Part shown: positions 6,995-43,103 of the stretch, in pieces
How positions within the stretch are numbered: the stretch's first letter is position 1
How the letters are laid out: each line of letters starts with the position of its first letter
NCBI GenBank assembly: GCA_024684215.1
Contig: JAIKXH010000165.1
Location: forward strand, 1-47,445
DNA from: Lachnospiraceae bacterium
GTDB taxonomy: Bacteria; Bacillota; Clostridia; Lachnospirales; Lachnospiraceae
Direction of reading: 5' to 3'
Length of the DNA: 47,445 bases
Notes under the pieces: generated by a model
What the model saw: the letters and a program-made list of their open reading frames with translations, nothing else
Told to the model about the DNA's origin: nothing
Databases searched by the model: none
Position numbers and translations under genes: made by a program

Positions 6995-7792
6995 TCAGAT
7001 TACATGCTTCTCAGCAAGCTTACCTACGATGTAAGCAACTGCATCTTCGGGTGAATCGGGAACAACCTTTTCTCCGGCTCCCTTACGTACCTTATCAGAT
7101 GCCTTGGCAATCTTTGTGGGTGAACCGTTAAGACCAAGGTTTCCGTCCTCTACATCTACGAGGTCTGCTCTTCCCATTGTGGTGATCTCTGCTGCACATG
7201 CATCAAAGATTCCTCCGGGAGTCATGTAACGGGGATCGTTAAGCTCTGCAAGAGCTGTGATAAGGCAAGGCATCTGAGCCTCAAGAACATGGTATCTGTC
7301 GTCATACTGACGCTGAACGATAACCTTGTCGCCTTCAACCTTGATATCCTGAGCGTAGGAAATAACGGGATATCCAAGGTGCTCAGCGATCTGAGGACCA
7401 ACCTGAGCGGTATCACCGTCGATTGCCTGACGTCCGGTAATGATGAGGTCATATTTATCTGTCTGCTGTAATTTTCTGATAGCACCTGCAATGGTGGTAG
7501 AGGTTGCCCAGGTATCTGCACCGCCGAGTACTCTGTCGGTTACAAGGACTGCCTTGTCAGCGCCCATAGCGATTGCCTCGCGGAGCACATCTGAAGCCTT
7601 GGGAAGACCCATGGTAAGAACGGTTACTTCTGCACCGTACTGATCCTTGAGACGAAGAGCAGCCTCGAGGCCTGCCTTGTCATCAGGGTTCATGATAGCG
7701 AGCATTGCTGCTCTGTCAAGAGTTCCATCGGGATTGAACTTTACGCCACCCTTTGTATCAGGAACCTGTTTAATACAAACGATTATCTTCAT
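6995..7792 (-). CDS. etfB: Electron-transfer flavoprotein beta subunit
   Basis: 265 residues with the typical start MKIIVCIKQVPDTKGGVKF and the EtfB signatures MNPDDKAGLEAALRLKD, VLTMG, GRQAIDGDTAQVGPQIAEHLG and PCLITALAELNDPRYM. The partner of EtfA, it carries the bifurcating flavin in the clostridial Bcd-Etf complex. It has a strong ribosome site, AAAGGAG, nine bases from ATG. It is separated from bcd by a 160-bp gap with RNA stem-loops. Confidence 0.96.
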   Translation of the reverse strand: MKIIVCIKQVPDTKGGVKFNPDGTLDRAAMLAIMNPDDKAGLEAALRLKDQYGAEVTVLTMGLPKASDVLREAIAMGADKAVLVTDRVLGGADTWATSTTIAGAIRKLQQTDKYDLIITGRQAIDGDTAQVGPQIAEHLGYPVISYAQDIKVEGDKVIVQRQYDDRYHVLEAQMPCLITALAELNDPRYMTPGGIFDACAAEITTMGRADLVDVEDGNLGLNGSPTKIAKASDKVRKGAGEKVVPDSPEDAVAYIVGKLAEKHVI

Positions 7793-40528: not shown

Positions 40529-40608
40529 GTTCTGCCTTGGCTACTCTAGATCACCGACCTCTATAATTTTACATCTGTCTCTTTTTAACTATCTTTTCCA
40601 ACAAATAT

Positions 40609-40728
40609 CTACAACAATTTCTCTCTGATTTTCTTCTCTATCGTAATTCTACAACAGTTTCTATCTGATTTTCTTCTCTATCGTAATTCTACAACAGTTT
40701 CTCTCTGATTTTCTCCTCTATGAATTTT
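40609..40728. repeat. Three exact-period 40-bp repeats of a gene 3' end including the stop codon
   Basis: Units start at 40609, 40649 and 40689 (period exactly 40). The unit 40689-40728 is the coding end of the PD-(D/E)XK-like gene (residues EEKIREKLL plus stop). The two others lie downstream of the gene and each end in the same TTGTTGTAG-type sequence with few changes. 40 bp is not a codon multiple. Confidence 0.95.
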
Positions 40729-41486
40729 GTATCCAGCGGCATTTCTCCAGATTCCATTGAAAACAAAAGATTATATCCCGCTTCATATCCGCAGGCCTCA
40801 TACATTTTTATTTTCTTCAATGCCCTCATAGCATATTCCCCATCATCAATAAGCCCAAAATGCTCCCAATAAATCGTCCTTCTTTCCCGCAAATTCAAAA
40901 GAGCAAAATCAGGATAGACATTCTTTCCATTTTTCAGTTCCACCTTTGGCTCATAGCAATAAGGTACTTTCATTCTGAAAAACATGTCTGCAAGTATTTT
41001 CTCAGACTTGGATCTCACACGCTCTCCTCTATCTGTCAAATATTGATTTTCATTTGGAAAAGAATTTATGTTCCCCGCATGGCTCTGCTCCCAGCTTTTA
41101 ATAAACTCAGCATCCGTAGGGTAGATAGGGGTTATCAATTCCTTTCTACCAACAGACAAATCTGAGAATGCCCTTTCGAATTTTGAAATGTCATAAGATT
41201 TAACAAAACTGCTTATCCTTTTCCTCTGCTGAATCATAATTTTCAATACAGACCTATCATAGTCTTTTTGTATTATTTTTCTAGCAATATCTCTGTCAGC
41301 TTTTTTTATATATTCTCTTTTTCCGTTGGGTCTTTTGAAATAGTACTGATATCCATTTTCCCTCTTATGTCCATATACAATTTCGCCTTCAAAATCATTA
41401 TTATTTCTAATCCGTTTCTCAGCTTTTTCAATCAAACTATCCAATAGCTTTATTTCTTTTTTTAATTCAATTTTACAGTCTTTCAA
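40689..41486 (-). CDS. PD-(D/E)XK-like nuclease-fold protein
   Basis: 265 residues, cytosolic. The coiled N-terminal half (about 1-100, with EKAEKRIRNN and the basic FKRPNGKREYIKKADRD) precedes a C-terminal region with a nuclease-like pattern: Glu162 (RSKSEKILADMF), YCYEPKVEL, Asp193 (VYPDFALL) and Glu208 (IYWEHFG), followed by an Arg/Lys-rich helix. The usual ExK Lys is replaced by EHF, as in some PD-(D/E)XK branches. No homologue is named with confidence. The start is TTG, supported by GAGGGG five bases upstream. Its nearest rightward neighbour is the 53-bp repeat array, and its own 3' end is triplicated. Confidence 0.75.
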   Translation of the reverse strand: MKDCKIELKKEIKLLDSLIEKAEKRIRNNNDFEGEIVYGHKRENGYQYYFKRPNGKREYIKKADRDIARKIIQKDYDRSVLKIMIQQRKRISSFVKSYDISKFERAFSDLSVGRKELITPIYPTDAEFIKSWEQSHAGNINSFPNENQYLTDRGERVRSKSEKILADMFFRMKVPYCYEPKVELKNGKNVYPDFALLNLRERRTIYWEHFGLIDDGEYAMRALKKIKMYEACGYEAGYNLLFSMESGEMPLDTKFIEEKIREKLL

Positions 41487-41678
41487 TTATTCCCCCTCTT
41501 AATGTAAAAAAGTACCAAACAGTACAAAATAATGCAAAACATTTCATTCTAAAACGGAATCACTTGTGAGAATAAATCACATAGAAATTTGTAGACATAC
41601 AGAATATACCTTACTTATCCCTGTGATGCAACATCATAATGATAAAATAATTATAAAATTTCCTTGTTTATATGGTTT

Positions 41679-42174
41679 GTGGCGTCGCACGTCATCTATC
41701 TGTGCCCCACTATTGATTCCTTCGCTCGATTGTGGCGTCGCCTCCACACTACACCGACGCCACTCCCTTCACTTTCCTCTCCCTGTGGCGTCCCTGGTTT
41801 GAACCAACGACATAAATTTCCGGCTTTTTCGCTATTTGTGGTGTTCTGCATCCTAGACAGAAGCATGCAAAATGTGAGGTTGTTTGAATTGTGGGGCTCT
41901 ATAGCCTAGGCAAAAGCATGCGGAGCCCCACAAGCTTCCATTTGTGGCGTCGCCCGCCATCTATCTGTGCCCCACTATTGGTTCCTTCGCTCGATTGTGG
42001 CGTCGCCCGCCATCTATCTGTGCCCCACTATTGATTCCTTCGCTCGATTGTGGCGTCGCCTCCACACTACACCGACGCCACTCCCTTCACTTTCCTCTCC
42101 TTGTGGCGTCCCCTTCTCCCCGACAAAACGCCACTCCCTTCACTTTCCTCTCCCTGTGGCGTCCCTGGTTTGAA
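41679..42174. repeat. Ten-unit array with exact 53-bp period (GTGG...)
   Basis: Units begin with GTGG at 41679, 41732, 41785, 41838, 41891, 41944, 41997, 42050, 42103 and 42156: nine equal steps of 53 bp. By similarity the types run A,B,D,C,C,A,A,B,B',D (the last cut after 19 bases). In A and B units the GTGG is matched by CCAC at positions 29-32; in B it is a 9-bp perfect stem GTGGCGTCG/CGACGCCAC with 14-base loop. The second C unit has GTGGGGCTC/GAGCCCCAC 41 bp apart. A pyrimidine-rich 21-bp linker follows. The plus-strand open frames here are by-products because 53 is not divisible by three. The rest of the 792-bp gap (41487-41678 and 42175-42278) is AT-rich with no gene. Confidence 0.95.
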
Positions 42175-42278
42175 GAAGTGCAAAAATATGAAAATGATGT
42201 ACTTTTAAAAAGATAGCAAAATAACTAACATGATCTAAAATAATTAATATAAAAGATATATAACTGAAAGGCAATATA

Positions 42279-43103
42279 ATGAAAGTTTTAGAATCGGAAA
42301 TAGTAAAAGCATATATCCGCATGGCTGATGACGGATGGCAGCAAGGATGGCATGAGCGCAACGGCGGAAACCTCACATACCGCATGAAAAATGAGGAAGT
42401 TGAAGAGCTAAAGGAAAACTTTACTCCCGGCAAATGGCAAGATATCGGAACCACAGTTCCCGGACTTGCCGGCGAATACTTTATAACCACCGGTTCGGGA
42501 AAATTTTTCCGGAATGTATCGATTAAACCCGAAGACTCAATTGCAATCATTGAGATTGATGAAAAAGGCGAAAACTATCGTATATGCTGGGGACTTGTAA
42601 ACGGAGGCAGACCTACTTCCGAGCTTCCCTCACACCTTATGAACCATGAGGTTAAAAAAAGAATCACAAACGGAAAACACCGCGTGATTTACCACGCGCA
42701 CCCCGTAAACACCATCGCTCTTACATTTGTTCTGCCTCTGAACGATGAAACCTTTACAAGGGAGCTTTGGGAAATGGCCACCGAGTGTCCGGTTGTTTTC
42801 CCCGACGGAATCGGCGTAGTGCCCTGGATGGTTCCCGGGGGACGTGACATTGCGGTGGAGACCAGCAAACTTATGGAAAAATACGATGTGGCCATCTGGG
42901 CACATCACGGAATGTTTTGCTCAGGCGAAGATTTCGACCTTACCTTCGGACTCATGCACACAGTTGAAAAATCCGCAGAAATCCTCGTGAAGGTCCTCTC
43001 CATGACCGACAAAAAACGCCAGACCATACAGCCTGACGATTTTAGAAATCTTGCCAGGGACTTTAAAGTAACCCTCCCCGAGCGATTCCTTTTTGAAAAA
43101 TAA
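42279..43103 (+). CDS. rhaD: Rhamnulose-1-phosphate aldolase
   Basis: 274 residues of the class II aldolase/RhaD family. It splits L-rhamnulose-1-phosphate into DHAP and L-lactaldehyde in the cytosol. Visible: WHERNGGNLTYR (phosphate site), TTGSGKFFRN, Glu115 in RPTSELPSHLMNH, zinc ligands His139 and His141 in YHAHPVN, His210 in WAHHGMF, plus TRELWEMATECPVVFPDGIGVVPWMVPG, which closely follows E. coli RhaD. A ribosome site AAAGG lies ahead of ATG. It stands alone: no rhamnose kinase, isomerase or transporter is nearby. One of only two plus-strand genes. Confidence 0.93.
   Translation: MKVLESEIVKAYIRMADDGWQQGWHERNGGNLTYRMKNEEVEELKENFTPGKWQDIGTTVPGLAGEYFITTGSGKFFRNVSIKPEDSIAIIEIDEKGENYRICWGLVNGGRPTSELPSHLMNHEVKKRITNGKHRVIYHAHPVNTIALTFVLPLNDETFTRELWEMATECPVVFPDGIGVVPWMVPGGRDIAVETSKLMEKYDVAIWAHHGMFCSGEDFDLTFGLMHTVEKSAEILVKVLSMTDKKRQTIQPDDFRNLARDFKVTLPERFLFEK

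Follow-up and report, generated by a model that had tools for sequence, protein, structure and literature searches.

A PD-(D/E)XK-like gene family associated with helically phased repeat arrays in Lachnospiraceae

The gene and the array in the window

The window, by which we mean the whole 47,445-nucleotide stretch of Lachnospiraceae bacterium DNA analysed here (GCA_024684215.1, contig JAIKXH010000165.1), carries a tandem array of 53-bp units next to a gene for a PD-(D/E)XK-like protein. The features are:

40689..41486, minus strand: PD-(D/E)XK-like gene, 265 aa, its start 193 bp from the array
41679..42174, no strand: 53-bp array of nine full units and a partial tenth, with GTGGCGTC-type handle
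41679..41686, plus strand: first L handle, unit positions 1-8
41732, 41785, 41838, 41891, 41944, 41997, 42050, 42103, 42156: starts of the further L handles
41756..41763, minus strand: R handle of the second unit, unit positions 25-32, inverted copy GACGCCAC
41703, 41968, 42021, 42074, 42127: starts of comparable R handles ending in CCAC
41785..41943, no strand: diverged C, D and E units, with GCATGC at the R position of D and E

The gene reads away from the array, so that the array lies upstream of it. The constant element of the 53-bp unit is the 8-bp L handle at positions 1-8; in the A and B unit types an inverted copy (R) follows 24 bp on, at positions 25-32, and that position reads differently in types C, D and E, with the GCATGC of sister species in D and E. 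A first-pass annotation, made from the letters alone, had described ten GTGG starts at an exact 53-bp step, two units (41838 and 41891) that have diverged yet keep the phase, and CCAC at unit positions 29-32 in six units. All of this was reproduced, the starts running as 41679 + 53n to 42156; the tenth unit is partial, and homology stops near 42174. The same annotation had called the array not CRISPR-like, and we agree, as there is no near-identical long repeat with unique spacers and only about 8 bp are constant. It had also credited unit 41891 with a stem of its own as a sign that stems are kept up. This stem (GTGGGGCTC/GAGCCCCAC) is present; it is near-complete in one other array (contig C154) and missing in the E units of C97 and C78. 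Blastn with the array found nothing in phage or plasmid records.

Two further observations concern the array. The end of contig C154 repeats the left flank of the window array (L011 4787-4856; window 41619-41688) and then continues with a different unit order, for which a strain variant, an assembly branch and a duplicated locus are alternatives. The best-kept part of the 21-bp spacer in the arrays of the source genome and of two sister genomes (G000, G014 and G006) is a short T-tract at unit positions 42-43, possibly a DNA bend.

The window protein is 47-48% identical to the proteins encoded immediately behind the orthologous arrays of G006 and G014. It matched no Pfam family even at E 5 and no NCBIfam family, and across 19 members of its family we found scattered single-member Pfam matches (for example RhuM in one) and NCBIfam matches in at most three. 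The C-terminal half was matched by PADLOC's PDC-S68 models in 19 of 19 members and, weakly, by PHROG resolvase and endonuclease families; PHROG 9019 (Holliday junction resolvase) matched 13 of the 19 (best 1.3e-5) and PADLOC HEAT_CxxC_PDDEXK nine (best 6e-7). By homology to described PD-(D/E)XK proteins, the family is classed as PD-(D/E)XK-like. Residues E162, D193 and E208 are invariant in the 19 sequences and the canonical lysine position is variable; the catalytic lysine of PD-(D/E)XK proteins can migrate. The protein may be a nuclease. The structure model was poor (pLDDT 54, and below 50 across most of the C-terminal half), and a Foldseek search with it returned no fold match at E <= 0.001. 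For residues 1-117, VIA-align gave helical-hairpin look-alikes; an integrase arm domain, considered for the N-terminal part, was absent among the matches listed, and Pfam matches to this part all fell far below the cut-off.

In viral contigs, tblastn with two narrower alignments found no homologue. Phage records gave three protein matches, one of them clear (MT839528.1; 92% of the query, 32% identity, E 2e-24), at L353 3114-3833 on an unverified 4.2-kb faecal scaffold labelled as phage; this record has no array by the homologue-locus test given below and is not counted among the 68 loci. Six partial matches in plasmid records were to four AAA ATPases, one RecD-like helicase and one unannotated protein. 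A 40-bp direct repeat of 2.8 copies (window 40608-40721) overlaps the 3' end of the PD-(D/E)XK-like gene.

Arrays elsewhere in the source genome and in sister species

In the source genome (168 contigs, 92% complete), the pattern GTGG-N49-GTGG-N49-GTGG was matched 32 times in forward and 13 times in reverse orientation, and a reversed control pattern not at all. Arrays in exact 53-bp phase lie on six of its contigs, that of the window and five more, and the window array is more than chance. The genes near these arrays are ordinary: a GH88 enzyme, ribosomal protein L20 together with a GH114 enzyme, an ABC transporter, a glutaredoxin-like protein, a DUF308 protein and a DHH protein.

Among 59 genomes, the source genome included, the GTGG pattern was found in that genome and as single matches in two others. 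Arrays found by DNA search in two sister genomes have the same 53-bp phase, with CGCATGCT at positions 1-8 and AGCATGCG at positions 25-32. Triple-handle GCATGC matches occur in three of the 31 genus genomes (G014, G006 and G005), and a looser two-handle pattern in five further ones, where its one or two matches per genome were not taken for arrays. The absence of a second array in related genomes had been set beforehand as grounds for giving up the first-pass reading; many arrays were found. Many spacers are homologous between the two handle types: counting a match when at least 20 of 37 core positions are identical, 24 of 42 source-genome units match a GCATGC-type unit, as against 1 of 42 when shuffled. 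The best-matching cores of the two types still differ at 10 or more of the 37 positions, and length is kept. The number of units varies, being six in G014 and one in G006 at one orthologous locus, and six and eight at another. The order of unit types looked strikingly conserved, an impression that shuffling did not bear out (75 of 200 shuffled orders did as well). G005, a genome 72% complete, has a GCATGC array, and its sole homologue has another handle (TACGGAA).

Searches for the GCATGC arrays were extended to larger collections. The three-handle pattern occurred in five viral_contigs and 39 genome_contigs stretches. All 44 were passed through a 53-bp inverted-repeat detector, which picked out six loci belonging to two Lachnospiraceae MAGs (RUG13622 and RGIG4443) and, weakly, L096. 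Nine genome and two viral stretches were viewed in phase; by eye, L095 (RUG11236, at a contig end) and L113 (RGIG4443) are short arrays, and L101, L110, L088 and L092 look like chance. A conserved-spacer pattern run against 397 family genomes matched four other genomes, none of them as an array.

Association, helical period and covariation across the family

Homologues of the gene number 26 in 16 of the 31 genus genomes, and the gene is present in 131 of 397 sampled Lachnospiraceae genomes. When 20 genus loci were read, many had an adjoining tandem array of inverted handles in other letters, such as CACGTG/GCGTGT, TGCACGC, GGACCAC, CCGCTGT, TTGATGC, TTACCAT and TACGGAA. The pairing of gene and array recurs with different words across many gut bacteria. 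We scored an upstream array where at least five copies of an inverted 7-mer lay within 700 bp upstream of the gene. The locus set was not random: it joined the 20 genus loci to 29 top-scoring and 20 hand-chosen ones, giving 69 rows, two of which (L251 and L257, without an array) were one place fetched twice, so that 68 loci are distinct. In 40 of these 68 an array of inverted handles adjoins the gene, upstream in 35 and solely downstream in five, and 28 have neither (upstream plus downstream only: 13 + 1 of 20 in the genus, 22 + 4 of 48 in the wider family). At a threshold of six copies the figures are 33, four and 31. Two further genus arrays, L219 (four exact copies) and L213 (downstream), are visible outside the test. 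At L206, ten copies of a 34-bp repeat lie downstream of the homologue (2425-2791), besides the upstream array.

Controls were drawn from a genome of another genus (G335, one 2.86-Mb contig with three homologues) and from the loci themselves. In G335, 37 of 917 genes (about 4%) reach five copies upstream and nine reach six or more; six of these nine carry cognate handles, and two homologues score highest. None of eleven other genes in the homologue loci passes the array test. Among 163 genus ORFs, 17 reach five copies; 14 of them belong to loci that were picked because of an array or that contain the homologue itself, one adjoins a RAYT-linked repeat and two have other repeats. Shuffled upstream stretches reach five copies in 2 of 30 loci (best of five shuffles). 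Co-occurrence of arrays with homologues of the 40689-41486 gene, which the first-pass annotation had named as a check, is borne out by 40 of 68 loci. That annotation had also suggested that the array might be bound by the PD-(D/E)XK-like protein encoded next to it; the association of gene and array is strongly supported, and the protein is a candidate for binding it.

Dispersal of arrays away from the gene is not confined to the source genome. We scanned the first 1.6 Mb of G335, with two irregular AT-rich windows set aside, and found 18 regular arrays, of which 17 agree in both handle and period with an array beside one of its three homologues (GTACCCC/94, TACCATA/72 and ATTACGT-TACGTGT/71-72). 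A count by handle gives 11, 4 and 4 clusters, all of whose 150 handle copies lie outside ORFs of at least 200 aa. A regular TGTTATA/96 array at about 284,000 of G335:C1 (L287) has no known partner gene.

The periods cluster at whole B-DNA turns (52-54, 61-65, 71-77, 84-86, 94 and 103-108 bp), with 71, 77 and 108 off the whole turn. For 37 distinct handle-period pairs the best unit is 10.5-10.6 bp (R 0.77, reached by 0 of 20,000 uniform draws), with a phase of 0.08 bp at unit 10.5. A set of 32 loci, one per protein cluster at <60% identity, gives R 0.76 (0 of 20,000 uniform draws), a value that 0 of 4,000 draws reach when the unit is fitted as well. The fitted peak is broad, R being 0.67-0.72 at 10.0 and 11.0; the modal period of L206 is a double period. 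Handles vary from locus to locus in step with the protein tree. By Mantel test, protein identity is correlated both with the similarity of handles (r 0.39, 0 of 5,000; r 0.16, 0.12% of permutations in the non-redundant 32) and with period (r 0.36, and 0.34 in the non-redundant 32; 0 of 5,000 each).

The ability to form stems, which the first-pass annotation had taken to be maintained, is not supported as a kept feature: L and R of the same unit are complementary at 5.78 of 8 positions, compared with 5.81 in partner shuffles (97 pairs). R paired with the L of the next unit scored 5.98 against 5.82 shuffled (84 pairs; 0.4% of shuffles reach it), a slight excess that is inflated by duplicated units. 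At other loci and in G335, 99 handle pairs contain a variant, and in 88 the change is one-sided, in nine two-sided and non-complementary, and in two complementary. Most variants are thus uncompensated, and stems are not what is conserved. Rfam 15 found nothing in the window at gathering score, and the two matches in 41500-42350 were at chance level. The earlier suggestion of a structural RNA array is disfavoured by the missing Rfam match, the lack of compensatory excess and periods locked to the B-DNA helical repeat; uncompensated handles together with whole-turn periods speak for sites in double-stranded DNA rather than for a hairpin RNA or a cruciform.

A proposed mechanism, its rivals and known systems

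We propose that the array and the neighbouring gene are two parts of one system, so that the window array would be explained by the gene next door. The PD-(D/E)XK-like protein would recognise its own short handle on double-stranded DNA. As the inverted handles repeat at a whole number of helical turns, five in the window array, bound copies would face one side of the helix and could assemble there. The gene-side array would be a local copy, with like arrays of the same handle and period scattered between genes elsewhere, and arrays would accordingly be copied or moved in trans, perhaps driven by the protein, with a possible benefit or cost to the host. Upon a change in the protein's specificity, arrays with a new handle would replace the old ones and parts of the spacers would persist. 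On the comparative evidence, we think it probable that the protein reads its handle from one face of the double helix and that its arrays have spread through the genome. Weighing against this are the 28 of 68 loci without an array, the array-less homologue on the phage-labelled scaffold, the non-random choice of loci, the partnerless TGTTATA/96 array, the differing handle of the G005 homologue, the periods off a whole turn under a broad peak, the variable lysine and the poor structure model. A bolder reading, to which we give somewhat less than even credence, is that of a new class of genome-resident replicator in Lachnospiraceae, in which a PD-(D/E)XK-like enzyme copies its own helix-phased DNA word to intergenic sites; word, spacing and enzyme co-diverge, which would give several independent pairs per genome.

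The arrays might instead serve the host, as operators or sinks that hold or regulate a potentially toxic or defensive nuclease, with dispersal left to ordinary recombination and no array moved by the protein. The predominance of upstream arrays (35 versus five downstream only) fits such a role, as does the match of 19 of 19 homologues to the C-terminal part of the PDC-S68 candidate defence models, with which they have a PD-(D/E)XK-like stretch in common. However, the match is confined to the final stretch of these models, which are about 1,200 aa long, compared with about 250-340 aa for the array-linked proteins; the neighbours of homologues included no conserved partner gene; and same-handle arrays far from the gene (the 11, 4 and 4 clusters in 1.6 Mb) go beyond what an operator needs. 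We therefore regard a host-serving role as rather unlikely. A recombination-site cassette, also raised in the first-pass annotation, is possible.

If the array were transcribed and its repeat RNA neutralised the neighbouring enzyme, the locus would resemble a type III toxin-antitoxin system, in which (as in the ToxIN type) a tandem array lies upstream of a toxin nuclease gene. The position of the array upstream of a nuclease-like gene is alike, and inverted handles make hairpins possible. This account is nonetheless improbable, given periods that follow the B-DNA turn, mostly uncompensated handle changes (88 + 9 versus 2 complementary), arrays far from any homologue, window units that are highly diverged and far from identical, and homologues of another protein family, resembling PD-(D/E)XK models rather than ToxN-type endoribonucleases. 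A neutral minisatellite beside an unrelated gene would account for the varying unit number at one orthologous locus (6 versus 1) and for a unit order no better kept than in 75 of 200 shuffles. It is very improbable all the same, because it leaves aside the association, the whole-turn periods, the covariation of handle and protein, the genome-wide cognate copies and a unit length that is kept even though the best-matching cores disagree at 10 or more of 37 positions. Scarcely credible, finally, is mobilisation as REP elements by a RAYT, a transposase of the Y1 kind: the three genomes with GCATGC arrays (G014, G006 and G005) each have a Y1 transposase, but none was found in the source genome (PF01797; 92% complete) despite its six arrays, and one is present in 6 of 27 genomes without GTGG- or GCATGC-type arrays.

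As an analogy, REPIN-RAYT is the nearest. REP/REPIN-RAYT systems (REPtrons) likewise have dispersed intergenic inverted repeats, a dedicated protein beside some copies, many copies without a gene and several families per genome. Unlike in those systems, the protein here is PD-(D/E)XK-like and not a Y1 HUH transposase (gene 40689-41486 has no Y1_Tnp match), and the arrays are tandem at whole-turn periods, without conserved stems or a GTAG/CGTC tag rule. REP palindromes carry a GTAG or CGTC tag at one end, according to PMC3733652. CGTC does occur in the GTGGCGTC handle, but inside the arm, and GCATGC and most other handles contain neither tag. The likeness to CRISPR is a tandem array beside a nuclease-like gene; the arrays here differ in their inverted handles, their many places and spacers common to arrays and species, and the window gene matched no Cas protein. 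BOX elements and other modular intergenic repeats are intergenic, modular and variable in unit number, as are these arrays, which in contrast are helically phased and come with a cognate protein family. A further analogy is alpha-satellite DNA and its CENP-B boxes, since there too diverged tandem monomers keep a constant protein box in phase; the present arrays are bacterial and intergenic, with several handle-protein pairs per genome. We regard the pairing of gene and array as distant from the known kinds of system. In the open-access literature searched we found no description of it, and it may be described elsewhere. An unannotated protein family present in 131 of 397 sampled Lachnospiraceae genomes is now linked to a class of dispersed bacterial repeats, and its dozens of natural pairings of protein and word open a DNA-recognition code, the part played by helical phasing and the spread of bacterial repeats to direct tests.

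Two minor observations were made on the genes around these arrays. Beside the homologue in eight loci of several genera (L209, L210, L212, L220, L223, L225, L228 and L236) lies a common neighbour family, which may be GMP synthase (guaA). RAYT-like Y1 transposases, 51-94% identical, occur in G014, G006, G005 and G029 (L161 1405-2244, L162 1090-1941, L163 1462-2241) and go with a separate dispersed repeat that has AAATGAC/GTCATTT arms and a GGGGGACGG core (for example L154, about 7619-7701), of which there are many copies in those four genomes and single matches in G000 and G027.
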